The translations under genes and the position numbers were made by a program. Below the pieces are notes generated by a model, which saw only the letters and a list, made by a program, of their open reading frames with translations, was not told where the DNA came from and did not search any database. A stretch of 64,000 nt of DNA. Source: Mesostigma viride. Lineage: Eukaryota > Streptophyta > Mesostigmatophyceae > Mesostigmatales > Mesostigmataceae. Positions 11,349 through 61,646 of this stretch are shown here, piece by piece (position 1 is the first letter of the stretch; every line of letters begins with the position of its first letter). The stretch lies in NCBI GenBank assembly GCA_009746045.1, contig RPFO01000097.1, positions 102,001 to 166,000 on the forward strand. The letters run 5' to 3'.

Positions 11349-11352
11349 TTAA

Positions 11353-14442: not shown

Positions 14443-14444
<2 letters not shown>

Positions 14445-14533
<89 letters not shown>

Positions 14534-14592: not shown

Positions 14593-14649
14593 TCCAACGT
14601 CGTGGAAGGACTAGGGTAGTGGTATGTTTACGGTGTAAATAATTATTAA

Positions 14650-16366: not shown

Positions 16367-16380
16367 TTAACGTAGGATCG

Positions 16381-16496
16381 CCATGCGTCCAGCTAGGCAT
16401 AGTTCTCAGTCTCACTTAAACAGTGAGACATGCCAATTATATACAAAAAACTGGTACACGTAGTATGAAGTGAGACAACTATGCTTGGACGCGTGG
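16381..16496. repeat. Short imperfect inverted repeat next to the right piggyBac-like copy
   Basis: CCATGCGTCC...GGCATAGTT at 16381-16404 pairs with AACTATGCTTGGACGCGTGG at 16477-16496. GTGAGAC motifs recur inside it and through 16430-16920. It may be a small MITE. Confidence 0.45.
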
Positions 16497-21690: not shown

Positions 21691-21715
21691 GCTACACATT
21701 TCCATCTCCCTTTAT

Positions 21716-24803: not shown

Positions 24804-27800
24804 TCACATCATGTACCCCACTTGGCCGTTGGGGTAGACAATCGTAGGCACCATCGCGATGCCCTGAGGACCATCCACCGCACCACCAGGCAGCCACAAG
24901 GACGATCGCAACAAGAAACATCCTCGTGAGCACACAAGTATACAGGGACGAGTGGATGCAAGCAGCGATGGTACAAACATCAACATTAAACTTGCAACTA
25001 CAGCTTTTAAATAAATTATACCTTCTAACGTTGATACTAGTAGTATGTATGCAAAGATAACATGCTTTCAGTCGCGTGCCTTGCGACGGGATTGCCAGGG
25101 ATTTGTAGGAATGCACGCACTGCGAGGGCTGTATGCATGCATCGCCAGCGACTTGAGGGTTGCTAGGGAGCTGCAGCATTGCAACAGGACACAGTGCGCT
25201 TAATGGGGAAGGGATGCTGGGGAATAGGACTTATGGGATAGTTCCAACCATTTAGGGGATAGTTCCAACCATTTAGGGGATAGTTCCAACCATTTAGGGG
25301 ATAGTTCCAACCATTTAGGGGATAGTTCCAACCACTTAGGGGATAGTTCCAACCATTTAGGGGATAGTTCCAACCATTTAGGGGATAGTTCCAACCACTT
25401 AGGGGATAGATGAAGGGGATTGTTAGTGGGCGGGGTTGGCCCAAAGGAGAAGGCCTTAATAAACTACTTATAAAGATTTTGTTACTGTTATTGCAACCCT
25501 TCACTATTGCAGCCTTATCAACTTTATTATTACTGTTATCACACCCCTTCACCTACCGCAACCCTACTTTATCATTACTATTACTAACCCACCCCTCCTT
25601 TCTCTTCCCCATTCCTTAGGCCTGGCGCTTTTGCCCCCACAACCCAGGGCAGAGAAGCGCGGGTGCGCCTTTCTGCCTGCAGCAAAGCAAGTTCGTCCCT
25701 TGTAGATTCCGGTATGGAATCTGATCTCCTAGCATATAGGGAAAGGCCATCCCTGCCCCTTCGTTCTAGACAGAAGTACCTGCACTGGCCCCCCTCCCTC
25801 CTCCCCCTTCACTGCCCCCTGCCCCCTGCGCCCCCCCCCCCCCAGCTCGCCTTCCCTCTAGTTGAAAATACATTGGGTTTGATGCCCCCCATTTCATGGC
25901 TGACTACTCTGTTGATCAATTCACAAACCTTACCATCTAGATGACTTGAATTCTATCCTCTCCCTTGAAAGAAAAACGATGCTGACAAACCAGAGATAAT
26001 GACTTCAGGCTTTCAGACTTAGGGCTTGCTTCCCTGAGGAGTTAGCTGGTCTATCCATTGCATACACCCTGCTCGCCGCCCACATCCTATTCATCGCTCG
26101 CCGCCCACATCCTATTCATTGCCCGCCGCCCACATCACATTCATCGCTCGCATCCCACATCACCTTCATTGCTTCCACTCACCCCATACACGTAGCCCCC
26201 CCGTGTGTTTGTCCGCCCCCGGTGGCTGCCCTCCCCTGCCCTCCTGTCCGATGGCGGCTTGGCAAACTCCACTTCCAGCACCTTGCCTGCATGAATGAAG
26301 GGGGGGTAAGGCAGTTTTCAAACATAAGAAACGGGCTGCACCATGGCAAACAAGGCTTCCAGCATTTTGCCTGCAGAGATGGCGCGGGAGCAAGGAGGCG
26401 TGGCTGCCACAGGGCGTTGCTGCGACATTTCCATGCCAGTTGTGCAGTTGATAGTATCTGTCGGACAATCAAGTGTTCGATAAAGTAAAAGCAGTACAGC
26501 CGTGATGCTATTAGAGCAGGTACTTTAAATAAGTGTGAGCTAAAGTAAAAGCAGTACAGCCGTGATGCTATTAGAGCAGGTACTTTAAATAAGTGTGAGA
26601 TAAAGTAAAAGCAGTACAGCCGTGATGCTATTAGAGCAGGTACTTTAAGTAAGTGTGAGATAAAGTAAAAGCAGTACAGCCGTGATGCTATTATGGCAAA
26701 TGCTTTGCCATTCTAACTAGTGCCCTGGCCCCTGCGTATTATCCATGAGACAAGCAGCGCAGGCCTGGACTGTGGAAGACCAGGACCATGGAAGCCCTCT
26801 TGTACAGTAGTGGTACATGGTATGGTGAAGGGGTGATGGTATAGTGACCTATTATACCTGCGAAACTGTTAAAATACGCACACTGCACCATCCCTCTTCT
26901 TACGCACGCTGCAACAATTCTCTGTGAGGATGTCTCTCCCTTCTCTTGCCACCATCTGCTGCCATCAGCCAACCCAAACACTGGCCCCCATATTGCTGCC
27001 ATCAGCCAACCCAAACTCTGGCCTCCATATTGCTGCCATCAGCAGCCCATTACAACATGTACTTGCCTATACTTTCCCAAAGTTCCACACTAGATAGTCA
27101 AACCCCACACATCAACCATCTCCTCGCCTTTCATCGCCTCCATCCCCCCCCCCCCCCCCCCCCCCCCCCCACTCCATCCACTACCTGCTCATTAAGGATG
27201 CACGCTGCTCCTACACCCAGTTTCCTTTCCCTTCGCCTCCATTAGGAAACTGAGACTGCTACGTGTAAGGCAAAACCACATCCACCACGCGGCTCCTTCC
27301 CCTTGGTTGCCTTGACTACATGACAGCACATGGACTACTGATACGATACCACAGCTATAGCAGCACCCACCGCCCATCTCCTTGCCCTTAACCGCCTGTA
27401 CTGAGATCAAGACATACAACTGGTATCGATTGAGTCATGCTCCATTAAGGAAAACAGCACCCACCGTCCAACTCCTTGCCCTTCATCGCCTCCACCGCCG
27501 CCTCCGCCTCCGCGCGCTCCTCGTAGTGCACGAACCCGAAGTCCTTGCGCGGCGTGCCTGGCTTGGACGGCAGCACACTCTTGACCACTTTGCCAAAGGG
27601 GCGGAACACCTCGGCCAAGCGCTCCTCGTCCCACGATTCGGGCAGGTTCTTGACGTAGACAATCTTAACCTGGCGACCGCACACATGCCCATGACAAGGA
27701 GCGAAGGTAAGGGGTCAGGGTCGAGAGTCCAGTGCTTGGTTGGGAGAGGAAGGTTTTCGAAGTAGACAATCTTAACCTGGCGACCTCACACATAAATTGG

Positions 27801-30800
27801 CATTGTGATTTGAGGTAGAGGAAATGGTAAGAATCAGCAGGTTGAATATCCCAAGACTCAACAGGTTGAATATCCCACAACAGGTTGAATATCCCAAGAC
27901 TCAACAGGTTGAATATCCCAAGACTCAGCAGGTTGAATATCCCAAGACTCAACAGGTTGAATATCCCAAGACTCAGCAGGTTGAATATCCCAAGACTCAG
28001 CAGGTTGAATATCCCAAGACTCAGCAGGTTGAATATCCCAAGACTCAACAGGTTGAATATCCCAAGACTCAGCAGGTTGAATATCCCAAGACTCAGCAGG
28101 TTGAATATCCCAAGACTCAACAGGTTGAATATCCCACTACAGGTTGAATATTCCAAGACTCAGGAAAGATTCATGACATGAATGGAAACACCTAGAAAAC
28201 AATGAAACCCCTTCCAAGAAACCTGAAACGCTTTCAAAAGAGCCTGTAAAAACTGTTTATAAAGCCTTAAACACCTCCAAGAAAAGCTCCGACTGCACCT
28301 GAGGATCCGTCTCATTTTTCCAGTATGCTGATCTTTCAACTTTTCATACCTTCAATCCTTTCAACTTTTCATCATTCCACCCTTCCACCCTTCCGACCTT
28401 CCACCCTTCCACCCTTCCACCCTTCCACCCTTCCACCCTTCCACCCTTCCACCCTTCCACCCTTCCACCCTTCCACCCTTCCACCCTTCCACCCTTCCAC
28501 CCTTCCACCCTTCCACCCTTCCACCCTTCCACCCTTCCACCCTTCCACCCTTCCACCCTTCCACCCTTCCACCCTTCCACCCTTCCACCCTTCCACCTTT
28601 TCTACTCTTCCAAGAATGAACAGACCTCATACCAACCCTACATAGACAAGGCATCCTTTGCAGTGCCCACCTTGAGCCACAAGGCTCATCTTAGACAAGA
28701 ACAAGCATCATCGAAAAGAGAGTGAAAAGCCATCCGGCGCGCTCACCTGCGCCTGCGCCTGTGGGTCGGGCTCCGCCCTCGGCTCGGCAAAGTTCACCGT
28801 CGGGATGTTACCGTCCAGCTTGAAGGTGGACTTGGTGTACACCTTGCGCGCCGCCTCGGCGCACGAGTGGTTGTAGAACTCCACGAACGCAAAGCCGCGG
28901 TTTTTCGTCTCGCACGCGGGGTCCTGTGGTGTTGCATGTGAAGGGGACGGTAGGAAACATAAATAAATACTACTATAAAATGATAAACAAGTAGAGTGCG
29001 GTGACGATAGTCAAAATTCATTGGGTTATTCGTCTCACACGTGGGGTCCTGCATGGAAGAGGGGGCAAACAGAGGACCGGGAAGGAGCAGAACAACGCAT
29101 CCATGCCTACTCGAGTACGGGCACCCACTTTGACCAGGTCAAACGGTTGCATGCCCACCGTGTCCTTGGACAAGACCGCGCACAGGCGCCAGCAGTTACT
29201 TGGGTTCTAGCTCCTTGCCAGGGGCCTAGTTCGTTGCTAGAGGCCTTTACTGTGAGGCAAGACCCACCTTGACCAGGTTGAGGTGCTCGATGCCCACGGT
29301 GTCCTTGGACAAGATCGCAAGCAGTTCTTCATGGGAGAAGGACTTTGGGACGTTGCCGATGAAGAGGCGGTTCTTGGTCTGCGCGACATTGACCCGCACC
29401 TTGGTGTCCTGCGGTAGGTGAGACAGACGCCCACGAATACCCGTGAAAAACAGGGTGGGTTAGTAGCAAGGAAGGGTAAGTAGAAAGGGAGGGTTAGTAG
29501 CAAGGAAGGGTAAGTAGAAAGGGAGGTTTCGTAGCAAGGAAGGGTTAGCAAAAGGGAGGTTTAGTAGCAAGGAAGGGTTAGTACAAAGGGAGGGTTAGTA
29601 GAAAGGAAGGGTAAGTAGAAAGCGAGGGTTAGTAGCAAGGAAGGACCCGTGAAAACAAGGAACCGTTAGCAGCACTTGCTTTGGTGTCCTGCGGCAATTG
29701 GATACCAGGGATGGTAATCACGGATGACAAGGAACGGCACTGCTATTGTGTCCTGACGCGTGCGATCAGAACACCCATAATGTCAGGGAATAATGAATAA
29801 CAGTTATTGGAATGCCAACAAATTTCAGGATGAAGATGAAGATAAAGATAAAGAAAGCAATACTGCATTCATGCATGGAAGAATGAATGAATGAATGAAT
29901 GAGGGAGGGAGGGAGGGAGGGAGGGAGGGAGGGAGGGAGGGAGGGAGGGAGGAGGAGGAGGGAGGGAGGGAGGGAGGGAGGAGGGAGGGAGGGAGGAGGG
30001 AGGAGGGAGGGAGGGAGGGAGGGGGAGGGAGGGAGGGAGGGAGGGAGGGAGGAGGGAGGAGGGAGGGAGGGAGGGAGGGAGGGAGGGAGGAGGGAGGGAG
30101 GGGGAGGGAGGGAAGGAGGGAGGGAGGGAGGGAGGAGGGAGGAGGGAGGGAGGGAGGGAGGGAGGGAGGGAGGGAGGGAGGAGGGAGGAGGGAGGGAGGG
30201 AGGAGGGAGGGAGGGAGGGAGGGAGGGAGGGAGGGAGGGAGGGAGGGAGGGAGGGAGGGAGGAGGGAGGGAGGGAGGGAGGGAGGGAGGAAGGAGGGAGG
30301 GAGGGAGGAGGAGGGAGGGAGGAGGGAGGGAGGAGGGAGGGAGGGAGGGAGGGAGGGAAGGAAGGAAGGAAGGAACGAAGGAAGGAACGGATGAACGAAC
30401 GAATCAATGAACGAATGAATGAATGAACGAAGGAAGGAAGGAACGAATGAAGATAGAACGAACGAACGAACGAACGAACGAACGAAGGAACGAACGAACG
30501 GACGTGCGTGCGTGCGTACGTAGGGAGGGACGTACGTACGTACGTACGTACGTACGGACATACGGACGGACATACGTACGTACGGTACGTACGTACGTAC
30601 GGACGAATGGACGAATGGACGAATGGACGAATGGGCGAATGGGCGAACAGACGAACGGACGAACGGACGAACGGACGAACGGACGAACGGACGATTGGAC
30701 GATTGGACGAATGGACGAACGGACGAACGGACGAACGGACGAACGGACGAACGGAAGAACAGACGAACGGACGAACGGACGAACGGACGAACAGACGAAT

Positions 30801-31869
30801 GGACGACTGGACAAATGCACGAATGGACGAATGGACGACTGGACAAATGCACGAACGAATGAATGTATAAATGAATGAACGCACGGATGATTGGCAGGGT
30901 GCCAGCAAGCTCATGCGGGACTGTGCCTGATGCACCTCACCACCATGCGCACGATCGAGCATCCATGTGCATGGACGCTTGGCGGAACACACTAGACGCA
31001 TGGGCGACTGGACGACGGGACGAATGGACGACTGGACGACTGGACGACTGGACGAATGGACAAATGCACGAATGGACGAATGGACGAATGGACGACTGGA
31101 CAGATGCACGAACGAATGAATGTATAAATGAATGAACGCACGGATGACTGGCAGGGTGCCAGCAAGCTCATGCGGGACTGTGCCTGATGCACCTCACCAT
31201 CATGCGCAGGATCGAGCATGCATGTGCATGGACGCTTGGCGGAACACACTAGACGCATGGACACTCGGCCACACTCACCTTGATCTCTACATCCTTGCAA
31301 GCCTCAACGGCCTTGGCAGCGTCCTCCTTAGTACGGAAGCCGACGAACGCGAAGCCTTTACCCAATCCGGTCGTCGCATCTTTTACCATGCGGATCTGCG
31401 CGACGATTGCGAGAAGTGCGGGGCAAGGCGGAGAACAAGTGAATGCGCGGCATACGTAAGGGCTGCGTCAGGCGATCTCATTTAGGATAAGCATCTGACG
31501 CAAATCGCTACAGGTATTCACATGACACAGGCCGCGTCAGCATACCTCGACAATTTCGCCCAAGCGCTCGAACACCTTGCGGAGGTCTTCTTCGCACACG
31601 CTGTGCGGAAGGCTCCCCACGAACACCTCGGCGCCCGCTGGGGGCCTTTGCATTGGATCCAGCACAGGAGCTGGGCGAGTACTGTGGTCATCCATCCTCG
31701 CTTCCCCTTCTTCGGGCTCTTCGGCATCCTCTGGCGGAGCAGCTGCCATGGCCGCATCCTGGACATCCCTGACTGCAACATCACCTTGCGTATCCATTGC
31801 GTCCCGGGTCATATCATCGCTTGATTGTGCCATGTGCGGATCTCCCGTCTCTCCTTCCGCGTTCGTCAT
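24804..31869 (-). CDS. hnRNP R/Q-like protein with three RRM domains
   Basis: This is a spliced gene for a nuclear or shuttling mRNA-binding protein of the hnRNP R/Q (SYNCRIP) / plant LIF2 type. Exons found by splice consensus and phase are 31869-31546, 31395-31279, 29408-29268, 28923-28747, 27669-27465, 26286-26183 and 24863-24804 (stop TGA). They give 375 codons with consistent phases. An acidic N-terminus ([15 protein letters not shown]) precedes RRM1 (EVFVGSL near 82, KGFAFVGF 121-128), RRM2 (RLFIGNV near 161, RGFAFVEF 203-210), RRM3 (KIVYVKNL near 255, KDFGFVHY 295-302), a short Arg/Gly linker ([11 protein letters not shown]) and an end [11 protein letters not shown]. The start is the ATG at 31869; the frame is open further up without an ATG. 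Extra exons between 26183 and 24863 cannot be excluded. The introns hold large simple arrays and degenerate copies of exon edges. Confidence 0.82.
25232..25410. repeat. 21-bp minisatellite, about 8 copies
   Basis: The unit is GATAGTTCCAACCATTTAGGG with a few C variants. It lies in the last intron of the hnRNP gene. Confidence 0.93.
26471..26693. repeat. 60-bp tandem repeat, about 3.7 copies
   Basis: An exact 60-bp period runs through TAAAGTAAAAGCAGTACAGC and ATTAGAGCAGGTACTTTAA, with 1-3 differences per copy. It is intronic in the hnRNP gene. Confidence 0.93.
27836..28160. repeat. 24-bp minisatellite, about 12 copies
   Basis: The unit is CAGGTTGAATATCCCAAGAC plus TCAG/TCAA. It is intronic between exons 4 and 5 of the hnRNP gene, and its frame-open translation is incidental. 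Confidence 0.93.
28376..28602. repeat. (CCACCCTT)n array
   Basis: It is an 8-bp unit repeated about 28 times, in intron 4 of the hnRNP gene. Confidence 0.93.
29455..29645. repeat. Degenerate GGTTAGTAGCAAGGAAGG minisatellite
   Basis: It consists of alternating AGTAGCAAGGAAGGGT and AAGTAGAAAGGGAGGG modules with indels, in intron 2 of the hnRNP gene. Confidence 0.75.
29881..30620. repeat. (GGGA)n grading to GGAA, GAAC and TACG arrays
   Basis: It runs from (GAAT)n through a 460-bp GGGA array with frequent one-base deletions (GGA), then GGAA, GAAC and TACG tetranucleotides. It is intronic (hnRNP intron 2). Confidence 0.92.
30600..31260. repeat. GGAC/GAAC arrays and a 248-bp higher-order duplication
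   Basis: Mixed GGACGAAC and GGACGACT arrays are followed by a block with GGCAGGGTGCCAGCAAGCTC that occurs twice, at about 30855-31008 and 31103-31258. It is intronic. Confidence 0.8.
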
Positions 31870-39803: not shown

Positions 39804-40397
39804 GCTTGCAAACTTTGCAACATGTCACTTCGCTGGCTATGGTGGCCCTGACGGCGGACGAGATAGCACCTTACGTAGTAATCTAAACGCGAAACAAAGG
39901 GCAGATTCGGATTCAGCACGAAAAGGTACGTCTAGCCATCTCTTTTGAGGGGCGGAACAGCTAGCCGTCACTTGAAACGTGTGGGTAGAAGGAGCAGGCC
40001 TTACGAAATTCGTAAGTCCGCCCCTCGCCTCACTGTTTCTCGTGACGGCTACCCCATTATGGCATTCGGTCAGTGAGCCACGGCTCGGATTCGAAAACCC
40101 ATCTGCAGGATGGACTAGGCCTGGGCCCCTCCACCTGGGTGGGCGAGTAGTCTCCTCGGAGCGTGACCTCCTGTACCCTCGGTTACCCTTTCACAGGCGC
40201 AATGACTATGGAATAGTTATCGCCACACTAGGTGATCCGCTATCACCAAGACACCTCCATAACGACTTTTCTCAATACCTGCTGCCATTACCCAAACGTG
40301 GGTGTAATGCAGCCTTTCCAATCGCTTTGGTTCTGCTCACAGCACACTGCACAGTAGGTCTCTCTTTTAATGACTATCTCACGCCCACGCCCTGTGC

Positions 40398-42053: not shown

Positions 42054-42055
42054 CC

Positions 42056-46462: not shown

Positions 46463-46628
46463 CCTTTCACCTGTCACCGCCACACGTGTGTGTGCCCACC
46501 TTCATTAGGATTCGCTGATACTCATTTCCCCTCTCACCTCTTTGGTCCATAATTGGCTAATAAAATATACCCATTTCCCCGAAAAAAGGCTTGCAAACTT
46601 TTACTTTTGTAGGAATAGCGCAAGCTCG

Positions 46629-46850
46629 GTACAGGCATTCACGCCTTAAGTTGGGTTGGCTTAAGTTGTGTTCACGCCTTAAGTTGGGTCAAATAGGGTT
46701 TCGGCATTCCAAGTTCAAAGTAGTTCAGAACAGTATGTTTAGTTCAAATTAGTAAAATTTAGTAGAATCATTCACGCCTTAAGTTGGGTTCACGCCTTAA
46801 GTTGGCCCCTCAAAAACCTCGAACCCAACTTAAGGCGTGAATGCCTGTAC
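46629..46850. mobile_element. 222-bp MITE with 29-bp terminal inverted repeats
   Basis: The ends start GTACAGGCATTCACGCCTTA and are mutually inverted (46629-46657 and 46822-46850). The body repeats TTCACGCCTTAAGTTGGG several times. No coding capacity or clear target duplication is seen. It lies 180 bp upstream of the DRC2 start codon. Confidence 0.75.
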
Positions 46851-47029
46851 AGCTAAATTAGGGGGATTATGCCTGGGTAATGGGTTATGGCGGATTTGCC
46901 ATCTCGATTAACTGACAAACGGAGCTATCACCTTTCCATTAAAAAAATTTCTGAATCGAAAGTACGCGGCAATCATTAGGGACATTATTCAGAGGGTTTT
47001 TATAATTTATCTTTTGCTAGTTGGAGAGG
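46851..47029 (+). promoter_or_regulatory. Presumed DRC2 promoter / 5' UTR
   Basis: This 179-bp gap between the MITE and the first DRC2 codon must contain at least the 5' UTR. An AT-rich TTTTATAATTTAT at 46997-47009 is the only TATA-like string and lies only about 20 bp from the ATG, so it may not act as a TATA box. Confidence 0.35.
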
Positions 47030-47859
47030 ATGGTGAAACTTAAGAAAGAAATGAAAGGAGGAAGCAAGGTAAGCAGGTTGATGGAAACCTAGTTCCCCTT
47101 AGGCCGGCCGGTTTTTAACCACCTTCAGGTCATTGTCCTGAATTGAGCCATTTACTAAACATGCTACAGCGGGGCTTCTTTCTAACCGCTCTAAGCCATA
47201 TGGATCTTCTGTCTTGCAGGTAAGGGCAAAGCCCCTTACGGAGGAGGAGCGCCTCGTTCGCGCAGAGATGCTTGCCCTACAGGTACTTTCCCTGCCATTC
47301 TTTAAATTTCTGCACGTTTTGTACTTTGAAACTCAGGATCGGGGTCATGTCAAACAGTTTGCCACGCACCATCGCCTGTTTTGGCAATATTCTTACCGCA
47401 ATAGGCATCGCGCCCAATTTTGAGGAGCAGCTGTAGTATTCAACACACACAAAGCGGCGCCCCCCCTTCCCGATATTTCTTCGGTAACCATCTTCGTATA
47501 GCCTGGGCGGGGATGCCCAATTGCAGGGAAATAGCCAACGTGTAAATCGTTGGTAGTCCACCCTGGGCGGCAACGGTTTCCTTTTGTTTGCTTCGGCCTG
47601 GTGCTTCTATATTGTTGTTCATCTCACTTATGAAGCCGCAAGCGGTGGGTAGGACGCAAGCTTTTCACTTTCATCCTATCAGGTCAGCTCGACCTCGCCT
47701 GGTACACATTGGACAAGGCAAACGAGGCAAACAACTTCTCTGGACAAGGCAAACTAACAACTTTTCTGGACAAGGCAAACAGCTTTTCCCGAGGTATGCC
47801 CCCAACCACGCTCCACCTACCTACCCCAACCACGCTCCACCTGACTACCTGACTACCCA

Positions 47860-47925
<66 letters not shown>

Positions 47926-50900
47926 CCCCCCCCCCCCCAGGAGGAGGAGGAGCGCCTACAAAAGGAGGCGGCGTCTCGCTCGCGCTTGCACACGCAGCAG
48001 CTGAACGAGCAGCGGTACGCGCGCGTGAACTCCATCAAGATCCACAACCAGTGGCGCAAGATTCGGCGGCTGGCCAAGGTAACCTTTTGGCCCGCAAGAT
48101 ATCATGGTTGCTGGCCAATGTAATGGTTTAGCCCGCAAGACATCATTGTCTTCCAAGAAACGATTACTGCAGGGGGGAAAGGGTGAGAGGCTTGTATGGC
48201 AAGGGGGGGGGGGGGGATAGAGGTAGGGCACGTAGGGTGGGTTTGAGTGGGTACAGTGCGCACCCAGTTACTTCATGATGATGCATGACCAGAGGCGCAA
48301 GGTACGGCGGCTGGCCGAAGTAATAGCTAAGTAGTAGTTACACTTGTTTAGTAGCACTTCCAACTAGTAAGTAGTAGTTACAAGTAGTTATGATGTAGTA
48401 GTTACAAGTAGTTAAGTAGTAGTTACATACGCAACCGAGTGGTCCAGGCTGCTGTGGCAATCATGTCAGCTGTTCAAGTAGGCCAGACGGGCCACGCTAT
48501 CTGCTGGTTCCTGATTCACGTACTCCTTCAGGCTGCCGTGCTAGCCGCTGGGTTCCTGATCTTGTTCAATGGTGGCCACGCAACCTAGTGCTTCCACTTG
48601 GCAGCGCTGGCTTTCTTTTTTGTTTGGGGGGGGGGCGCGGGGTCTTGAAGCTGGTCAGTTGCTTCTCCCTCCCCTCTCTCCCCCTCTCATATATTCTCGG
48701 CCACCTCTCTCTCCCCCTCTCGTCGGTTATCGGCCACCTCTCTCTCCCCCTCTCCTCTGTTATTGGCCAGGTGGAGGAGCTGCGCAAGGAGATTGAGGTG
48801 CTGAGCCAGAACCACGAGCGAGAGGTGGACCGAAAGGACGCCATCATTCAGATGCTGGACCGTGACCTGGAGGATGGTGCGTGGCAAGGGGGTTGGGTGA
48901 CGACCATGTCGTGCCAGTGATATGGGTGTGGGCCGTGGCCGGGAGGATGGTGTGTGCCCACAAAACCGGTGAAAATGTTGGGTTGAAGACATAGGATCCA
49001 GTTGGCGCGACACCACGTGTTGACTGGGAGCTGTTGCTCCACCACACGGCCATGTCACGTGCGTGAAATGGGTGTAGACTACGGCCTGGAGGACGGTGCA
49101 TGGCCCTGGTGTTCGGCTGCTTGACCATGCTACCATGGCATTTGGCATCCAATCATTGGCTGTACAAGCATGCAATCATGTACCACCGCCCCCGTAACTC
49201 TGCCAATATGGATACAAGTAAATGCTATCGAGCCTTTGGTTATACCTGCTTCCTGCCGCCCATCATATTGGCACTTCTGTGGTCACTCCACCCCCTTCAT
49301 TCTGCCTCCCTAACTTTGCTAGTTTCACTCTACCTCCTTGCGGCCACCGCTCGTCCCAATACCCCCCCGTTTGCTCTACCTCCAGAACCCTACGTCCTTT
49401 GCGCTACCCCCTTGTTGCCATCATCGCCCAGCAGGGGCCGGTTGCAAACCAGCACCCATACAGATATGCAACCGGTCACTGTACTGACACCCCACCATTC
49501 ACTCTACCTCCTTAGCCCTGCCTTGTTCCCTCTCGCCCCTCGTCACCATCCGAGGACCAGTTTCACACCATCACTCTCGCTGACACCCCACCGTTCACTC
49601 TACCTCCTTAGCCCTGCCTTGTTCCCCTCGCCCCTCGTCACCATCCGAGGACCAGTTTCACACCATCACTCTCGCTGACACCCACCGTTCACTCTACCTC
49701 CTTAGCCCTGCCTTGTTCCCCCTCGCCCCTCGTCACCATCCGAGGACCAGTTTCACACCATCACTCTCGCTGACACCCCACCGTTCACTCTACCTCCTTA
49801 GCCCTGCCTTGTTCCCCCTCGCCCCTCGTCACCATCCGAGGACCAGTTTCACACCATCACTCTCGCTGACACCCCACCGTTCACTCTACCTCCTTAGCCC
49901 TGCCTTGTTCCCCCTCGCCCCTCGTCACCATCCGAGGACCAGTTTCACACCATCACTCTCGCTGACACCCCACCGTTCACTCTACCTCCTTAGCCCTGCC
50001 TTGTTCCCCCTCGCCCCTCGTCACCATCCGAGGACCAGTTTCACACCATCACTCTCGCTGACACCCCACCGTTCACTCTACCTCCTTAGCCCTGCCTCGT
50101 TCCCCCTCGCCCCTCGTCACCATCCGAGGACCAGTTTCACACCATCACTCTCGCTGACACCCCACCGTTCACTCTACCTCCTTAGCCCTGCCTCGTTCCC
50201 CTCGCCCCTCGTCACCATCCGAGGACCAGTTTCACACCATCACTCTCGCTGACACCCCACCGTTCACTCTACCTCCTTAGCCCTGCCTTGTTCCCCCTCG
50301 CCCCTCGTCACCATCCGAGGACCAGTTTCACACCATCACTCTCGCTGACACCCCACCGTTCACTCTACCTCCTTAGCCCTGCCTTGTTCCCCCTCGCCCC
50401 TCGTCACCATCCGAGGACCAGTTTCACACCATCACTCTCGCTGACACCCCACCGTTCACTCTACCTCCTTAGCCCTGCCTTGTTCCCCCTCGCCCCTCGT
50501 CACCATCCGAGGACCAGTTTCACACCATCACTCTCGCTGACACCCCACCGTTCACTCTACCTCCTTAGCCCTGCCTCGTTCCCCTCGCCCCTCGTCACCA
50601 TCCGAGGACCAGTTTCACACCATCACTCTCGCTGACACCCCACCGTTCACTCTACCTCCTTAGCCCTGCCTTGTTCCCCCTCGCCCCTCGTCACCATCCG
50701 AGGACCAGTTTCACACCATCACTCTCGCTGACACCCCACCGTTCACTCTACCTCCTTAGCCCTGCCTTGTTCCCCCTCGCCCCTCGTCACCATCCGAGGA
50801 CCAGTTTCACACCATCACTCTCGCTGACACCCCACCGTTCACTCTACCTCCTTAGCCCTGCCTTGTTCCCCCTCGCCCCTCGTCACCATCCGAGGACCAG

Positions 50901-53900
50901 TTTCACACCATCACTCTCGCTGACACCCCACCGTTCACTCTACCTCCTTAGCCCTGCCTTGTTCCCCCTCGCCCCTCGTCACCATCCGAGGACCAGTTTC
51001 ACACCATCACTCTCGCTGACACCCCACCGTTCACTCTACCTCCTTAGCCCTGCCTTGTTCCCCTCGCCCCTCGTCACCATCCGAGGACCAGTTTCACACC
51101 ATCACTCTCGCTGACACCCCACCGTTCACTCTACCTCCTTAGCCCTGCCTTGTTCCCTCTCGCCCCTCGTCACCATCCGAGGACCAGTTTCACACCATCA
51201 CTCTCGCTGACACCCCACCGTTCACTCTACCTCCTTAGCCCTGCCTTGTTCCCCTCGCCCCTCGTCACCATCCGAGGACCAGTTTCACACCATCACTCTC
51301 GCTGACACCCCACCGTTCACTCTACCTCCTTAGCCCTGCCTTGTTCCCTCTCGCCCCTCGTCACCATCCGAGGACCAGTTTCACACCATCACTCTCGCTG
51401 ACACCCCACCGTTCACTCTACCTCCTTAGCCCTGCCTTGTTCCCCCTCGCCCCTCGTCACCATCCGAGGACCAGTTTCACACCATCACTCTCGCTGACAC
51501 CCACCGTTCACTCTACCTCCTTAGCCCTGCCTTGTTCCCCCTCGCCCCTCGTCACCATCCGAGGACCAGTTTCACACCATCACTCTCGCTGACACCCCAC
51601 CGTTCACTCTACCTCCTTAGCCCTGCCTTGTTTCCTCTCGCCCCTCGTCACCATCCGAGGACCAGTTTCACACCATCACTCTCGCTGACACCCCACCGTT
51701 CACTCTACCTCCTTAGCCCTGCCTTGTTCCCCCTCGCCCCTCGTCACCATCCGAGGACCAGTTTCACACCATCACTCTCGCTGACACCCCACCGTTCACT
51801 CTACCTCCTTAGCCCTGCCTTGTTCCCCCTCGCCCCTCGTCACCATCCGAGGACCAGTTTCACACCATCACCCTCGCTGACACCCCACCGTTCACTCTAC
51901 CCATTATTTTGTTGCCATGACCCGCAGCCGAGGACCAGTTCCATATGGTAGCATGCATATATGGTCACTGTACTGACAGCCCGCCGTTCACTCTACCCAT
52001 TGGCCCCCCTCGTCGCCAGCCGAGGACCAGTTCCAGATGGCGCTTCGCTCGCACCTGCACGTGGTGGACGCGCTCATCGACCTGCAGTACACGCGCGTCA
52101 AGGTATGAAGCTGCGATATTCGCATGCAAGATGGGTCAAGGTGAGGAATGCGCTGTCAGCAAGAATATTCTTCCTCGGCACAAAGGGGTATGGGCAGGCA
52201 CAAATGCGTGGTACAACCTTTACGAACAGAGTTAAGTGTTACAACCTTGACGAGCAGAGTTTGTCCACGCCAACTCCTCCCCCCTACTAGTATATGCGCG
52301 ACACCCACACCCACACTTGCCAGCTGCCGGGCGAGGATTTTGGCGGCCAACCCTTATGCCCAATCCAAAGCCCAGGGGCCTTTTGCCCTTGCGGTACTAC
52401 ACAGCAAGCCTAGCCCGTGGAACCCCACGAACGCTCTCGTACCGCACCTGGACTTGCAACCCATGCAGCGGTACTTCTTCCCTTGCACAAGCTGCTGGGC
52501 AATGAGGTTGACAGGATCCCCCTTCACCCGCACCCCTGCCTTTATGCTTCTCATAAGGGGCACATCGCATGTCTCTGTTTTCCCTCGCCAGCTGCTGGGC
52601 GAGGAGTTTGCGGCCAACCTGGCGGCGCTGGAGGAGGAGTTTGACACCGAGCGGACCGAGATCATCAACGCGCACGCGCGCCAGAAAAAGGACATTGCCG
52701 ACATGATGGCGGCGATGGAGTCGGAGTTTGAGGAGGCCGAGGCGGACGCGCGGCAGGAGTTTGAGTCACAGCGCGAGGAGATCAAGGTGCGGTTTTTGCC
52801 TGTAACGTTGCTATACGTAGCCTGGCCCATGGCTTGATATCCCCTTACCGATGCGCGCCAGGAGTGTTGAGTCACAGCTGGAGGAGATGAAGGTGGGGAG
52901 GTGTTCTTCACACTGCTAGGAGAAGGTGCTTTAATGTTGCTGGGAATAACATGGCCCATACTGTTGTAGGAATGTCACTTTGTGCGGGGCACAATCGAAC
53001 AACGGATGCACTCTACTCACCCTCTATGCCATATCTCATACCATACGCACCCCCTTTACCTCGCTTACTGCCAGAACCGCAACTCGGAGGAGTACAACGT
53101 GCTCAAGATATCCCTGGAGAGCACAATCGAGGAGCTCGAGCGCCACTTTGAGCAGGCGCACGCGGCCTATTTGGCGAGCACGGACGCGCGCACGCAGTCG
53201 TTCCGCGAGCTGACCGAGCGCGACGCGGCCAGCGCGCACATCATCGAGAAGCGCATGCGCAAGCTCGTGCGGCTGCAGGACAGCCTCGCGCACTGGCGGA
53301 CCAAGATCGCGTCCAACGGGTGGGTGGAACTTGTAATGACATGGTTGACGAGTGATGGATGGTTGGAGTGCCTTTCCTGGCCCACCTTTGCACACTGGCG
53401 GACCAAGATCGCGTTCAACGGGTGGGTGGAACTCATGGTTGAGTAGCGAGGGATGGTTGCAGCACCTTGTGGTGGTTGCAGCACCTTGTGGCGGTTGCAG
53501 CACCTTGTGGCGGTTGTAGTACCTGGGTGTTCACCGGCATCAGCCTGCCCAAGTACGCCGTGGAGTTGAGGGCGAGACTGGCTCCCCTGCGTGTGCTGGT
53601 GCCCCTGAAGGGTGTGGCCCACCTTTGCACACTGGCGCACCAGGGTCGCGTGAAGCGGGTCGCTGGAATGGCTGTATAGATAGTTGTGTGCGGTACATTG
53701 ACAGTGCCGGGGCATGTCTGTGCTCGCACACTGGCGCACCAGGGTCGCGTCCGGCGTGGGAGCGGGGGGTGACGGTGTTCTAGGGAAATGCTGGCGTTTT
53801 AGGGCGTGTTTTGGGGGTGTTCTTGTATAGTAAGTGCAACTACTAGGGATAAGTGCAACGCTTCTAATGCGATGGGGGCCATTCCGAGTTTGTACATTTG

Positions 53901-56900
53901 CCCTTTGCGCATTGTTTGTTGGTGGCTGTCAGACGACACTTGTTGTGTGCAGTAGGCAGTTCTGAGGTTTCTTCTGGCTGGGTAGGAAGGGGGGGGGGGA
54001 GGCTCACGGCTGCGCATCAGCCGTTTGTATTGACGTGTGTGCAGTCGTTGACATCTCTTGGCTATGACACCTATGCCGTGGCTGGCAGCAGGAGGCCGTT
54101 AGTGGGGACACCCACCAGTAGAAAAAAAAGACGGGGAAAAGAATGCAGGGCTTGCCTTGCACAGCGGTCGCATCCCCCCACCATCGTCGTCCCCCCACCT
54201 ATTGCTTCACCTCTTCTTTCCAACCTCTTGCTTCTTGAGGTTTTCTTCAACCTCAAACCCACGCGCTGCGGCTGCCTGCCTTCTCGTGCGTGCACCCTGG
54301 ACCGCCCTGCAGGCGCGAGTGGGAGCAGCGGAACCAGGCCCTGCGCGAGGAAAAGGAGGTCATGAACCGGCACTACCAGGTGAGAAGGCATCGCTTCTGT
54401 CAATGTAACTTACTTGGATGTATTATAAATTGTTTGGATGTTTTATACATGCTTTGGATATAGTTTAGGCATACCTGGTACCAGAATGCGTGTCCTTTTT
54501 TTATTTCTCAAGCAGCATGGTGCTTTGCCATTCCTCATGACATGTGCCTTGATGCTTCCCATTTCTGGCCGGCGGTTTGTCGTTTGGGCAAGGGAGGGGA
54601 GAAGGGGGTTTGGGGGTGATTGGGGTGTTGGGGCTTGGGGGAGGGGTGTTGAATGTCGTGTGAGCATTGACCCTTCCTGCTCGCTTGTTCGAGCGATGAC
54701 CTTTCCTTGGCCCCTGCACGCTCTGCGACACTGCAATGCAGAAGAATGCTTCCGGGATCGTATTTCTGTTCCCTGGCCGAGCTCTTTATAATTTTTCTTA
54801 CCACATTCTGCTTGGCCGCCTTGGTCGTTATATACCGCTGTTATTTTGACATTGTTTGGATCGTGTCTTCTAGTGCCCCCCTCATTTTCAAATGCGACAT
54901 CCCTCATGACATTCGACACCCCTGTCTCTCAATGTCCCTTGAAGTGTTTTTCTCGTCCCACCCTGTTCCATCCGGATTGGTTGGGACCCTCCTCTGCAGA
55001 ACAAATAAATAAATGATCACATGAATGAAAATAGTACCCAAGTGCCTCATGGGCCTCTCGCCACGCTCTCTTGCTCATGCTCTCTCCGGTTGCTCTTGCG
55101 GGATCCGCGATCCATCGGTCGCAACCGCCCCGCAGAACCTCAAGGGCCGCATGAACCGCTTCCGAGAGGCAGAGATCGACCGGCTCAAGGTGCGTGGGGC
55201 GGCCATGTGGAGCCACGGTTGTCTTCGATCGTCTCCATAAGTGGGTGCCGGGTGGGAGGGGAGGGGAGTGTGTGTGTGTGTGCACCCACACATGTGAGAT
55301 CGGTCGGCTCCGGTCCGTGAGGCGGCCGTTGTTTTCTACTGCTGGATGTATCTGCGCAGGGATGGGTGTAGCGCTCATACCTAGGAGGCCGACCGGCTTT
55401 ACGACGCCATGGGTGCGTATGGCGGCAGCAAACAGCTCGCAGAGTCGATCGCCATGTTCATGAATCTGTAACCTCACAAGTTGCCTAAAAGTTCAACCTC
55501 CTTTTGGTTAGGCAAGAACCCTCTTTTGCTGGGTTTACTGCTGGGCTGAACCTCCAGGCAGCGTCCCTGCTACGGTTGGGCACTAAGTCAGGGAAACCTC
55601 TACTTCAGGGAAGTTGACCCACCCAGGCAGTGACCTCCCAACCCTCGGCGCTGTGTATTACTTCCAGAACAGGTTTCTACAGGAGGCAGAAAGCCGTCCC
55701 ACGCTCGGCGCTCCTAAATTCCTAGAGCTTTGCAAGGGAGTCCAGGATTGTGAAAACGTTGTCCAGCTTAGCCCATCAGCCGAATTCCCTCACTCTGAAA
55801 ATGTTGCCCGCCGCTCAAACGGATTCCCTTTCCGGTGCTTCCCACGGCACCTGTCTATGTGGGTGCGTGCAGCAACAAACCCCTAAATAGCCACGCACCA
55901 CTCTGGCTCAACCCACCAACAAAAATCAAAGGGAAAAGAAAAGGGAAAAAAATATAGTTCTCCCCATCGGTGTTCCTCATTGTATCTGCCAACGTACTTG
56001 CAGCAAACTGTCCCGAAACAGCCGCACACCGATCCGGCCTAAACAAAGTGTGCCCACCTGCTGACCAACCCCTCGCTCCGTGTCTACCCCGCTGGACCTG
56101 CCTGTGTGCATGCATCAGCTATGGCTCAACAGCCGCGCATTGTTTCGGCCCACCCGCTAACCAAACCCTGGCTCTGTGTCCCACACCGCTCCTGCCTGCC
56201 TACGTGCGTGTGCGTGCAGCAACTATCGCTCAACAGCCGCGCCGCCACCGACTCGCTGCAGGAAAAAGTGCGCGCCGCCGAACGCATCCTGGTGCTCGCC
56301 GAGCTGAACCGTAAGGTGCGTTCAGGCGCATAGGTGCGTCACTTTGTGAGAGAACGCCACCATTACCATAGGCGGAAGCGAAGATAGGCTAGGGTGTTGC
56401 ATGCGATGGGTGCCCAGCTTTGCTTGCTGGCCAAGCCGACCCGCAAGGCGTGTTTGATTATAACTAGTGCGTGCCCCACAGCGTCTAGAATAGTGGAAAT
56501 ATGTGGATTCAGCGTACTATTAGGGTTTCGCGTAGTTTGAGGATCCCGATGGCATGCTGGTAGGATGGGCGTTCACGTGGGAGTCATCCTCGCCCCTTCC
56601 ACACACACGATTGGTGCCACCCCCTCCTCCCTCCCTCCCTCCCTCCCTCCCTCCCTCCCTCCCTCCCTCCCTCCCTCCCTCCCTCCTCCCTCCCTCCTCC
56701 TCTCCCTCCCTCCCTCCCTCCCTCCCTCCCTCCCTCCCTCCCTCCCTCCCTCCCTCCCTCCCTCCCTCCCTCCCCCCTCCCTCCCTCCTCCCTCCCTCCC
56801 TCCCTCCCTCCTCCCTCCTCCCTCCCTCCCTCCCTCCCTCCCTCCCTCCCTCCCTCCCTCCCTCCCTCCCTCCCTCCCTCCCTCCCTCCCTCCTCCCTCC

Positions 56901-59900
56901 CTCCCTCCCTCCCTCCCTCCCTCCCTCCTCCCTCCCTCCCCCTCCCTCCCTCCCTCCCTCCCTCCCTCCCTCCTCCTCCCTCCCTCCCTCCCTCCTCCCT
57001 CCCTCCCTCCCTCCCTCCCTCCCTCCCTCCCTCCCTCCCTCCCTCCCTCCCTCCCTCCCTCCCTCCTCCCTCCCTCCCTCCCTCCTCCCTCCCTCCCTCC
57101 CTCCCTCCCTCCCTCCCTCCTCCCTCCTCCCTCCCTCCCTCCCTCCCTCCCTCCTCCCTCCTCCCTCCCTCCCTCCCTCCCTCCCTCCCTCCCTCCTCCC
57201 TCCCTCCCTCCCTCCCTCCCTCCCTCCCTCCCTCCCTCCCTCCCTCCCTCCCTCCCTCCCTCCCTCCTCCCTCCCTCCCTCCCTCCCTCCCTCCCTCCCT
57301 CCTCCCTCCCTCCCTCCCTCCCTCCCTCCCTCCCTCCCTCCCTCCCTCCCTCCCTCCCTCCTCCCTCCCTCCCTCCCTCCCTCCCTCCCTCCTCCCTCCC
57401 TCCCTCCCTCCCTCCCTCCCTCCTCCCTCCCTCCCTCCCTCCCTCCCTCCCTCCCTCCCTCCCTCCCTCCCTCCCTCCCTCCCTCCCTCCCTCCCTCCCT
57501 CCCTCCCTCCCTCCCTCCCTCCCTCCTGCCCGCCCGCCCGCCCGCCCGCCCGCCCGCCCGCCCGCCCGCCCGCCCGCCCGCCCGCCCGCCCGCCCGCCCG
57601 CCCGCCTTGACTCATATAATACTCATTCACTTCTACTTAGTGCTCATTCCCTAGTGCATTGCTCATTTAGTGCTGCATGCCCCATAACCTCCTGCCCCTG
57701 ACCACCCCACCGCGTCCACCAGATGGAAACCGAGCAAGAAAAGGTCGTTCCCTTCCACCCCATCCAGCTCGACCCGGCACTCGAACAAGAGCTAGCCGCC
57801 AAGGTCAAACGAGAACAGGAGGCCGCCGCTGCCGCATCAGGGTCCCCCCACGCGGCCGGAGCCAGCGCTCCGGATGCCAAGGCGGCCCACTTCGCGGATG
57901 AAGGGTACATCATCGGAGGCAGCGCTGGGGTGGACGCGGCGTCCAAGGACGAGCTCGTGGAGGACGGCAAGCACCTCAGCAGCTACGCGGCAAGTTTTGC
58001 CGGTGTCAAAATCATGGTGTTGTTTGGTGGCGTGAATGGTGCTTGTTTACTTTGAGGCGAAACTGTCACTTGAAGGATGGCCTATGCCTCAGCAGCTACG
58101 CGGTACGGTTTTTACTACCTCGATGACGGTGTCGTGCGTTACTGTGTAGCCAGCTGGCCAGCTGGTGTTCTGGGCACTTGCCTGGCAGGGAGGATGGCAA
58201 GAACCATTAAATGCCTGAGTTTAATAGTACGTAGATCCAAGCCCGCGTTGTGTATAATATGCAGAAATTCGAGTATTATACGTAGTTAGTACGTAAAAGT
58301 ATGATATAGTACGGCAAAGCTGCGTACGACATATACTACGCGCACTACCCGTAGACCATATATAGTATAACATATGGTTTATAGCTGGGCGTTTGCTTTG
58401 GTTTGAGTGATTTCACTCTGCTGTAAGTAATTATATTTTTAATATATAGTATAATAATACCATATATAGTATAACATAGTATACCATATCATAAGCGCAC
58501 TATCCGTATGATACACTGGACCAATCATCTCTGGCATATGCTCTCACGTGATAGCTAATTAATTAATTAATGCTCTCTTGGCGCCTGAGCAGTTACGTGG
58601 TAAAGTTCTTGTTGGCCAAGGAAATTATGGTTCCAGCTGTGGCGTGCACGGTGCCGAGACTGTGACTGTTCCGAGAATTTGTACCTCTCGGCAGGTACGT
58701 GGTGCGGTCGCGCTGCTGCACTAGAGCATTGCCAGGCAACCGCCTTCTTTTGTGAGCTTTTGCACCTCAGCACCAGCGCCATCAAGCATGGGTTGGCCGA
58801 GCCCAGGGCAGCGCTTCGCTTACCGCCGGATCCGCCGGATTGTAGGCGCGCATCCGCACGGCTCCGGCGGCACTTTAAAGTGTCCGGCGCGGATCCGCAC
58901 GCCGGCTGGCCCCTAATAAGTGCCGGCGCGGCGAGTGGCCCTATGCCTAGTTCGTGGTGGGCCAGGTGGGGTCACATGTGCAGCGTGGGTAACAACAACA
59001 ACAACAACAACAACAAACCTGGGAAAAAAGCCCTGGGGGTGTGTACTTGGCCAGCTCCAAGCTGTGTTACAACTTAACAACGCGTTCCCGGGTGTATCCG
59101 ATGAAGCAACCGTACCTGTCTCTGCTGGGTACCTGTGTTTCTTTGTTTGTTTGTGAAGGCATGCTGTTCAGTGTTCTGGCCCTCGGCCGATTCCAACTGC
59201 CCATGTGCGGCGTGGGCAACAACAACAACATCAACTTGGCCAGCTCGTGGCCGGCCGACGCCGGCTGTTGGCCGGCATTTGCCGGCCGCCGGTGAAATTG
59301 TTGCCGGCGCGGCGACGGCTGTGGAAAAAAGCCTAAACGAAGCGCTGCTCAGCACATATTCTATCATTCATTCATTCACTCACTCACTCACTCACTCACT
59401 CACTCACTCACTCACTCACTCACTCACTCACTCACTCACCCACCCACCCACCCACCCACCCACCCACCCACCCACCCACCCACCCACCCACCCACCCACC
59501 CACCCACCCACCCACCCACCCACCCACCCACCCACCCACCCACCCACCCACCCACCCACCCACCCACCCACCCACCCACCTACCCACCACCCACCCACCC
59601 ACCCACCCACCCACCCACCCACCCACCCACCCACCCACCCACCCACCCACCCACCCACCCACCCACCCACCCACCCACCCACCCACCCACCCACCCACCC
59701 ACCCACCCACCCACCCACCCACCCACCCACCCACCCACCCACCCACCCACCCACCCATTCATTCATTCATTCATTCATTCATTCATTCATTCATTCATTC
59801 ATTCATTCATTCATTCATTCATTCATTCATTCATTCATTCATTCATTCATTCATTCATTCATTCATTCATTCACGCGCCAACTCTTGAGTAGGTACCTTC

Positions 59901-61646
59901 CATCCCTGATTTATTCACAGCAAGAAGATATTGCTATTTTTAGTATCGTGTTTGCGGGTCTAGCTTCTTCACCTCTGCAGCTGCGATCCAGTTTCGCTGG
60001 CATGGGTTCATGGCAGTGTTGGGTGGCTGTTTGGACGGGAACTTGTCTTTTTTGGGCTGTGAAACGAATTTGTCGACTCTTTGAGTCCCCGCATGGCCCC
60101 TACCCCCCTGCTTGTGCGCGGCGGTTATTTTTTTTTCTTTAAATAATAAATTTATTATTTTTTGAGAAGGCTCGCGCCGCCCGGTGCTCCCTCAAATCTC
60201 CTCTTTGTTTCCCCCCCTCCAAGCTTATAATAAACTATATATTTTTAAGTATTATCTGCCATCACCCTGCGGCAGCTTGATGACTCGGGTGATCCGATTT
60301 AGTTTTAAGGTTGATTAATTTTCTTTCTGCACACCTGCTGTTTGTCACCCTCGTGCTGCTGGATGACAAACGCAACCTTGACTTAAGCGTCGGTTTCTCA
60401 AACCCCAGCACTACCACCACCGTGTGTTTTCCTTTATGGTCTTCTTCCCGGCACCCTCGTGCAGCTGGATGAGAAAGGCAACCCGATTTCGGAATGGGAC
60501 TACCTCAACTACTTCTTCACGCGGCATAACAAAGTGAGTTCAAACAAATAACAACGTGAGTTCAAACGCATAACATAGTGAGCTCAAACGCATAAGCAAG
60601 TTAGTTCAAATGGGTAACAAGGTGAGTTTAAAAGCGTAACAAAGCGAGTTCAAACACCTCGTTACTATACCATGCTCAAGCCTTTGTTTATGTTACTGCA
60701 CCACGCAACACCTGCCTTGCCCCCCCCACCACGACCACCACATGCCCATGTCCCCAGGTGGCCCTGGACAAACTGGCGATCGAAAAGGAGTTCAAGCGGC
60801 TGTCGGCAGAGAACGAGGACCTGCGGCAGATCCTCAAGGAATACCTCGATGGGACTTCCGTCAACGCGGACGTCATTAATGACCCAAACAACCCGCTTTT
60901 TGTACGTGGCCGCGCGAATCGAGGAGAAAACAGAAAGAGGACACATGCTTTGTACATTGCCGCGAGGGAAGGAAAAAAGAAAAAGAAAATAAGAGGAAAC
61001 GAGGGAAGTAGAGGGAAACTGGAAACAAGGGAAACGGGGGGGGGGGGGGGCTGTTTGTGCTTGGATGCGAGGAAAAAAACGATTAGGAAAGAGAACAGGA
61101 GAGAAGATAGGAAACAGAGCAGAGACAGGGCGAGCTCTTTGTACAATGAACAAGCCTTTTCTTTTCGTGAAGTGAGCACTTTGTACAGTGTGGCAGCAAT
61201 GACAAAGAACTGGAAGGGGAACTGAAGGAGAGAATGGGAATGGATCTCGTTTTGGCATATTGTGGGAAGCCATGTTCCGACATGCTAGGCAATGGATGCC
61301 TATGCCTACTCACTCTTTAACAAGAATACCAATCGCCCACCCTTCCCCTTCCCCCCCACCCCCCACCCCCCACCCCTCACCCCCCACCCCCCTTACCCCC
61401 ACGTTCCAGTAACTGGATTTGTTATCTCACCTCGTTTGCTGCATGGCTCCTCTGCGCCCTGCCCCTCCCCTCCGTGCCTCACCCCCTGCGCCTCGTCAGA
61501 TCGTCAACCAGCGGTTACAGAAGACGCTCACCGGCACCATGGGGCGCACGGCGGGCGCCCCCATCACTCAGGCACCGCCAGGTTCCCCTGCGCGGCAACG
61601 GGGCGCCCCCGTGCTTGTGCTGCAGCACAACCGGTCGGCATCGTGA
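47030..61646 (+). CDS. DRC2: Dynein regulatory complex subunit 2 (CCDC65/FAP250-like), 14 exons
   Basis: This is a coiled-coil subunit of the nexin-dynein regulatory complex, needed for coordinated ciliary beating. Exons are 47030-47068, 47220-47282, 47941-48078, 48771-48876, 52020-52102, 52592-52786, 53075-53319, 54313-54379, 55136-55189, 56220-56315, 57723-57989, 60465-60533, 60758-60901 and 61500-61646 (TGA). They total 1713 bp, 570 codons, with every phase consistent. The start [13 protein letters not shown] leads into KPLTEEERL. Family landmarks follow: [68 protein letters not shown] and the C-terminal [20 protein letters not shown] before NPLF. Intron 11 uses a GC donor (GCG/GCAAGT). 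The length is slightly above animal CCDC65. Residues about 310-340 (encoded 57820-57940) form an Ala-rich insertion. The introns hold large arrays and exon-edge echoes. Confidence 0.9.
47865..47938 (+). repeat. (CT)n plus poly-C tract forming the exon 3 splice acceptor
   Basis: About 29 CT units and 16-17 C run directly into AG at 47939-47940. The microsatellite is thus the polypyrimidine tract for DRC2 exon 3. Confidence 0.9.
49471..51935 (+). repeat. 96-bp minisatellite, about 25 copies, in DRC2 intron 4
   Basis: Each unit contains CATCCGAGGACCAGTTTCAC, then CACTCTCGCTGACACCCCAC and CTCTACCTCCTTAGCCCTGC; unit length is 96 bp with 94-95-bp variants. The CCGAGGACCAGTT core matches the first bases of DRC2 exon 5 at 52020 (CCGAGGACCAGTTCCA). 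A further, less perfect copy precedes the exon at 51927. More degenerate units extend back to about 49260. Because 96 is divisible by 3 the array is open in one frame, but no spliced product needs it. Confidence 0.95.
56626..57525 (+). repeat. (CCCT)n array, 900 bp, DRC2 intron 10
   Basis: It is a CCCT tetranucleotide array broken by many one-base deletions (CCT). Long open frames across it are artefacts. Confidence 0.97.
57526..57606 (+). repeat. (CCCG)n array
   Basis: It continues the CCCT array in register with one base changed per unit. Confidence 0.95.
58300..58570. other. AT-rich TATAGTATAA repeat region in DRC2 intron 11
   Basis: It contains repeated ATATATAGTATAA motifs (58360-58500) and an AATTAATTAATTAA run at 58557-58571. 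No gene is seen. Confidence 0.5.
58800..59300. repeat. GC-rich inverted and duplicated region with (AAC)n tracts
   Basis: CCGGATCCGCCGGATTG and GGCGCGGATCCGCACGCCGG lie at 58838-58905. GCGTGGGTAACAACAACAAC (58983) is repeated as GCGTGGGCAACAACAACAAC (59210). It is intronic in DRC2. Confidence 0.6.
59368..59873. repeat. (CACT)n, (CACC)n and (ATTC)n arrays in succession
   Basis: Three tetranucleotide arrays (about 59374-59438, 59439-59757, 59757-59872) differ from each other by one base per unit and keep register. Confidence 0.97.

Follow-up and report, generated by a model that had tools for sequence, protein, structure and literature searches.

The stretch of DNA analysed here (the window) comprises 64,000 nucleotides of the green alga Mesostigma viride, corresponding to positions 102001-166000 of contig RPFO01000097.1 in an assembly of 440 Mb (GCA_009746045.1). 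At positions 47030..61646 of the window, the forward strand carries a gene for DRC2 whose introns contain copies of the adjoining exon edges, which we refer to as echoes. The gene model consists of 14 exons (47030-47068, 47220-47282, 47941-48078, 48771-48876, 52020-52102, 52592-52786, 53075-53319, 54313-54379, 55136-55189, 56220-56315, 57723-57989, 60465-60533, 60758-60901 and 61500-61646, the eleventh with a GC donor), which join to a single open frame of 570 codons without a frameshift. The best match of the product in the PDB is the DRC2 chain 7ju4_2 (E 1.4e-178), which we take to come from a Chlamydomonas structure. Echoes also occur in a gene on the reverse strand (27465..31797), which has an open frame across five exons (31797-31546, 31395-31279, 29408-29268, 28923-28747 and 27669-27465; the two ends of the gene are provisional) and codes for a protein with three RRM domains (Pfam RRM_1, E 1.4e-50). 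It is called the RRM gene in the following.

Every splice junction was queried with 30 exonic plus 10 intronic nt against its own intron, using 200 dinucleotide shuffles for each, and was counted as positive if p was below 0.01 and the alignment crossed the junction. In this main junction test, 12 of the 26 DRC2 junctions were positive, namely the donor edges of exons 3, 4, 6, 7, 9, 10, 11 and 12 and the acceptor edges of exons 5, 6, 10 and 12, so that both 5′ and 3′ borders get copied. The RRM gene was positive at five of nine junctions, and junction-spanning matches were obtained for 22/81 junctions in the ten gene pieces covered. Control alignments against other introns gave only two positives among 243. 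An original prediction made from the letters of this DNA had described echoes at nine DRC2 edges and had proposed the comparison of junctions with shuffled introns; the scores obtained are not those of random intron segments. Eight of the nine edges were confirmed (the ends of exons 3, 4, 6, 7, 9 and 11 and the starts of exons 6 and 10). The end of exon 13 dropped out, because its alleged echoes gave p values of 0.46 and 0.67, did not fall below 0.01 in the main junction test and match over only about 10 nt. Four edges with echoes were added to those predicted (the starts of exons 5 and 12 and the ends of exons 10 and 12), together with a second duplication of 41 bp at the end of exon 3.

With 45 exonic and 6 intronic nt as the query, 11 of the 26 DRC2 junctions matched their own intron at p<0.005, and exon-only queries of 40 nt, applied to three genes, matched at 13/46 edges with p<0.01 (10/26 for DRC2, 3/8 for the RRM gene and 0/12 for the part of an ABC transporter gene that was included). 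No match was found for the adjacent 40 nt deeper in the same exons (0/30) or in the intron at the wrong side of the exon (0/40), and other introns yielded a single match in 184. Only the intron adjoining the edge thus holds the copy, as indicated by the wrong-side and inner-exon controls. Off-diagonal self-alignment of the DRC2 region gave 52 local direct pairs at a score of at least 75, compared with 0-2 per shuffle in six shuffles. For this purpose, we used our own aligner with stiff gap costs, because lenient gaps gave over-long alignments; a self-comparison by blastn missed the copy of exon 7 described below. Simple repeats were masked throughout, and most of a 96-bp array before exon 5 was masked or left out in the self-alignments, event counts and simulations. 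Chance similarity in low-complexity introns explains the exon 13 matches of the original prediction, but as an account of the remaining echoes its probability is negligible: it is opposed by the shuffle, inner-exon, other-intron and wrong-side controls and is refuted for 17 of the 35 junctions in the window. The echoes in the DRC2 introns are real.

The freshest full tandem duplicate in DRC2 belongs to the end of exon 7, where the exon end and the following intron recur 102 bp downstream at 53383..53468 (79% identity over 94 nt, p 3.7e-13); the tandem duplication of about 102 bp claimed for this site was therefore confirmed with a period of 102. The same edge has further echoes 339 bp (53620..53668) and 438 bp downstream (53723..53765, 77% over 43 nt). 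The end of exon 3, including the donor and the start of the intron, is repeated with a period of 41 bp at 48110..48149 (83% over 40 nt), and a longer echo of 50 exonic and 4 intronic nt lies 241 bp downstream at 48270..48323 (80% over 54 nt, p 2.8e-9). Echoes of the exon 4 end were found 73 bp (48929..48956, 86% over 28 nt, p 3.2e-7) and 219 bp downstream (49085..49116, 78% over 32 nt), while that of the exon 6 end is located about 105 bp downstream at 52850..52898 (86% over 49 nt, p 1.7e-10). The exon 9 end is the weakest of the eight upheld edges, with an echo about 124 bp downstream at 55296..55327 (82% over 33 nt, p 0.0018, or 0.011 with the exonic letters alone), and the exon 10 end recurs 132 bp downstream at 56425..56454 (77% over 30 nt, p 7.2e-5). 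Two echoes follow exon 11, one 113 bp downstream at 58071..58111 (76% over 41 nt, p 8.4e-7) and the other 610 bp downstream at 58583..58610, which shows 79% identity over 28 nt to the first. The real donor of exon 11 (57990-57995) reads GCAAGT and is thus of the GC type, whereas both echoes (58103-58108 and 58600-58605) carry GT, pointing to a donor that was still GT at the time of copying.

At the acceptor side, the start of exon 5 including its AG recurs 92 bp upstream at 51925..51948 (23/24 nt, p 7.2e-7). It is preceded by a minisatellite of 25.3 copies of 96 bp (49484..51901) with a copy of the exon 5 start in each unit, the last of which is aligned to the exon 5 border. Exon 6 has an echo of its start 268 bp upstream at 52319..52352 (91% over 34 nt, p 5.1e-9) and a weaker one about 100 bp upstream at 52478..52510 (79% over 33 nt, score 79). 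Upstream of exon 10, a ladder of echoes extends over 55863..56138 with the nearest one at 56113-56138 and spacings of 96, 112 and 131 bp (p 6.1e-7), and the start of exon 12 is echoed 106 bp upstream at 60346..60377 (91% over 32 nt, p 2.4e-8). The end of exon 12 (p 3.4e-5) is part of an array of 6.0 copies of 22 bp at 60524..60655, which begins 10 nt within the exon and includes its donor.

In the RRM gene, echoes were detected for the end of exon 3 (29123..29179, spacing 139, 81% over 57 nt), the starts of exons 4 (29024..29051, spacing 125, 89% over 28 nt) and 5 (27748..27793, spacing 107, 89% over 46 nt) and the end of exon 5 (27361..27397, spacing 94, 89% over 37 nt), the last of which has two more echoes at 27266-27312 and 27100-27142 (spacings 179 and 352). 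A short match of 14/14 nt to the start of exon 3 lies 280 bp upstream (p 0.0031), corresponding to 29681..29694 as calculated from the distance; all of these are on the reverse strand. Outside the window, genes were predicted by a finder of our own that had been trained on three genes from the window. Pfam backs the RRM, ABC, LMWPc, DUF4471, MFS and ankyrin products; for a product named COX-like the Pfam search returned no match, and this name is a guess. On two other contigs, the main junction test was positive at two of six junctions of a DNAAF3-type gene (a label that we presume from the DUF4471 family; its exon 2 donor was set by eye), at one of eight in a low-molecular-weight (LMW) phosphatase gene and at 2/20 in the ABC transporter gene. 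With exon-only queries, the DNAAF3-type gene on contig C1 gave matches at the ends of exons 1 (p 0.0089) and 3 (p 0.0024) which both reach the last base of the exon, and an ankyrin piece gave one match (p 3.7e-4) that stops short of the edge. The phosphatase gene contains an array of 15.4 copies of 28 bp at the end of exon 2 (L030:9188-9617), which begins 8 nt within the exon. The original prediction had read the shared habit of two unrelated genes as a sign of a genome-level process. The process indeed reaches beyond one locus, because the RRM gene and genes on two other contigs carry echoes, but a genome-wide habit at the density of DRC2 is unsupported, because 17/35 junctions in the window contrast with 5/46 elsewhere.

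The echoes of the main junction test are located 22, 46, 62, 73, 92, 94, 102, 104, 106, 106, 107, 109, 113, 123, 125, 132, 139, 201, 241, 247, 268 and 280 bp from their edges, and 13 of these 22 distances fall within 92-139 bp. Mean ungapped identity over 28 echoes was 0.83 and 0.86 in the first two 5-nt bins on the exon side and fell to about 0.3 by 40 nt, compared with 0.71 and 0.60 on the intron side and about 0.3 past 20 nt. A sharp stop of homology at the splice site, which this profile might indicate, was weakened as an interpretation, because the offsets were mostly picked by exonic matches; indels and the doubled divergence between a pair of intronic copies account for part of the fall in identity. 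Tandem or minisatellite-like repetition is present in the 25 copies of 96 bp, the 6 of 22 bp, the 15 of 28 bp and the 102-bp duplicate of exon 7, although it is not clear for each echo. Where an edge has several echoes, the nearest was also the most similar in six of eight cases over 20 exonic nt and in five of eight over 30 nt, a pattern that lends slight support to repeated copying out of the edge.

From these features, we consider it likely that the echoes are duplications of the "mirage" type, i.e. tandem or near-tandem duplications spanning the exon-intron border, of which the outer copy is used and the inner one drifts. A stretch of typically about 100 bp across the border would duplicate in tandem or nearly so, leaving the splice site in duplicate; splicing at the copy adjacent to the interior of the exon would keep the message the same and lengthen the intron. 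Selection on the exon and the splice site would keep the exon-facing copy in use with an unchanged protein, while the inner copy would turn into intron and drift freely. Repeated rounds may then produce ladders or minisatellites whose units include exon-edge sequence, and edges may be favoured since a constrained edge offers a lasting, undegraded partner for later slippage. The copies themselves, their position, spacing and divergence and the excess of duplication clusters at exon edges are demonstrated by the sequence, and the splicing of the outer copy, the neutrality of the inner copies and the reason for the edge preference are inferred.

The preference for exon edges was assessed by a simulation in which tandem duplications were placed uniformly, exons were kept unchanged and introns accumulated substitutions, indels and deletions. 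Edge-spanning events made up 22-26% in the simulation compared with 14/27 in the window, a fraction reached in none of 200 runs; one of the 200 runs contained at least 14 edge events. The exonic part was at most 51 nt in all 14 edge events of the window, compared with 54-63% of those simulated. We also counted the duplication clusters that come within 12 bp of an exon edge at their outer end and compared them with 3000 permutations. In the window 15/23 clusters touched an edge (expected 5.0) and in the other genes 11/27 (expected 3.0), values as high being reached in 0/3000 permutations; at a stricter score the counts were 12/18 (expected 4.4) and 7/21 (expected 2.1, P 0.0033). Per edge, this corresponds to 15/34 in the window and 11/46 elsewhere, compared with 4.4% and 2.4% at random intronic positions, for which the reach was slightly narrower than in the count of real edges. 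These values are to be read with three caveats in mind: pairs in which one partner is constrained are easier to detect, the other genes are few and come from our own finder, and a reader who had noticed the pattern selected the window.

Several results weigh against border-spanning duplication with a preference for edges. Besides the sparse echoes of the ABC gene (only 2/20 junctions), the COX-like gene (0/4) and four ankyrin gene pieces (0/8) gave no positive junction in the main test. Almost half of the events in the window (13/27) do not span an edge, several of which resemble echo-echo pairs or multiples of short arrays and were still counted. Outside the window only 3/28 duplications with a spacing of at least 40 bp and 2/15 with at least 60 bp were edge-spanning, i.e. 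there was no edge excess, in a count which omitted three rows of class "other". Finally, intron-side homology was not found for the exon 3 end of DRC2 at 241 bp or for the exon 3 end and exon 4 start of the RRM gene, even though the spacing exceeds the match in each case.

The latter observation would fit short insertions instead of tandem duplication. In this scenario, a piece of the edge of about 25-60 nt would be copied again along with unrelated filler, through a template switch, during the repair of a break or by a small mobile element that duplicates its target. In these three cases (spacings 241, 139 and 125), the matched stretches of 28-57 nt are far below the spacing, and ungapped identity generally reaches background within about 20 intronic nt. 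However, alignments at the exon 7 end, the exon 10 start, the exon 5 start and the 41-bp copy of the exon 3 end show homology running through the whole unit, and older copies should lose their intron homology, because divergence is twice as rapid between two intronic copies and ungapped comparison is disrupted by indels. Only the alignments were used here, because the null of an intron-homology test was inflated by repeat families among the introns drawn as random pairs. We therefore regard insertion as an improbable source of the echoes.

The echoes might also stem from plain intronic tandem duplication without any preference for edges, where units overlapping an edge simply remain recognisable for longer since the exon copy does not drift. 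In the other genes, arrays confined to the intron are plentiful (25 intron-only vs. 3 edge-spanning), and the choice of the window by a reader aware of the pattern also speaks for this explanation. Nevertheless, the simulation of uniform duplication failed to reach the edge-spanning fraction of the window, and clusters touch edges above random outside the window as well, even at the stricter score. An edge excess initially seemed to be present in all genes; the low count outside the window reduced this impression, and the cluster test partly restored it. We conclude that the edge-anchoring of the duplications is probably real and that the echo density of DRC2 is probably above average, and consider duplication without edge preference a serious but rather unlikely alternative. 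A more far-reaching version, in which exon edges are preferred seeds of intronic DNA, seems possible, although we would sooner doubt it than adopt it. Each edge would be preserved by selection and repeatedly re-copied into the intron, which would lengthen at both ends through successive layers of ever older edge copies and through arrays of decoy splice sites.

The echoes might also be functional decoy or regulatory splice sites under selection. Many of them retain GT or AG in register, and the 28-bp array of the phosphatase gene contains 12 AAGGTRNGT donor cores on the sense strand and none on the opposite strand. On the other hand, GT or AG is gone altogether from 7/28 echoes and is retained in two others only in a shifted register according to our reading of the profile, and the 40 introns scanned for splice-like sites showed no overall excess on the sense strand (donors were sense-richer in 9 vs. 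8 introns, acceptors in 8 vs. 15). Because of these losses and the lacking sense excess, free drift of the inner copies is suggested, and maintained decoys appear very unlikely.

Local direct duplications (score of at least 90, spacing of at most 600) are dense at 24001-31000 and 46001-61000 of the window, where the two intron-rich genes are located, and there are none at 2001-8000, 10001-22000 and 40001-46000. These duplication-free stretches hold transposon-like and single-exon genes, and their age may be the cause of the emptiness. Two long open frames on the forward strand (3992-7953 and 41936-46459) look like reverse-transcriptase elements by eye, and a single-exon gene for an MFS transporter at 18033-19697 (forward strand; Pfam MFS_1, E 1.3e-29) resembles nitrate transporters by eye. 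Outside the window, the genes predicted in L011-L013 (contig C1:5000001-5023000) appear giant-virus-like by eye, including one of primase-helicase type, and this region might represent an algal virus that has inserted into the genome. L001, L002, L003, L004 and L006 contain satellite-like tandem repeats (periods of about 173-184 bp), and in L010:7728-8171 a single-exon gene on the forward strand reads by eye like one for a plastid-type ferredoxin precursor.

The DRC2 echoes match a published description of "mirages" in amphioxus genes (PMC3087553), where units extend across the splice border at either the 5′ or the 3′ side, and arrays can abut the splice site. The unit sizes quoted for mirages (10-72 bp in Adh3, 150-160 in BflGb6, 60 and 108 in PGBD5; PMC3902484 for PGBD5, citing Adh and TnC) overlap with the spacings of 22-280 bp observed here. 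The differences are that the host is a green alga and not a lancelet, that many copies are single and strongly decayed, and that about half of the junctions of two genes are affected. Moreover, undisturbed splicing and allelic length variation are reported for amphioxus, whereas the echoes are known from the sequence of one assembly, in which the frame of DRC2 is intact. Intron gain by tandem duplication, as outlined for the potato RdRp gene with a duplication across an intron-exon border (PMC4974935) and for Drosophila (PMC2891723), is similar in that a tandem duplication inside a gene carries splice signals along without disrupting the coding sequence; in these accounts, it creates a new intron position, whereas existing introns seem to be lengthened here. 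Ordinary intronic minisatellites share the tandem units and the local expansion, and many such arrays are present in the introns examined, but the units described here often include exon-edge sequence and their clusters are anchored at exon edges. A word-match search of open PMC papers revealed no algal case of mirages by title or abstract. The echoes thus probably belong to the known mirage kind, while the lineage, the density and the measurement of edge-anchoring appear to be new.

Long introns are described for Chlamydomonas and its relatives, with medians of 198-343 bp (PMC8226300). The origin of intron sequence other than from transposons is an open question, to which border-spanning duplications offer a traceable answer. 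That both lancelets and a green alga possess them points to a process that recurs. The arrays of copied donor sites also raise the question of how the splicing machinery skips many near-identical sites only tens to hundreds of bases away. If exon edges indeed seed intronic DNA, mirage formation would be a main route of intron lengthening rather than a curiosity.

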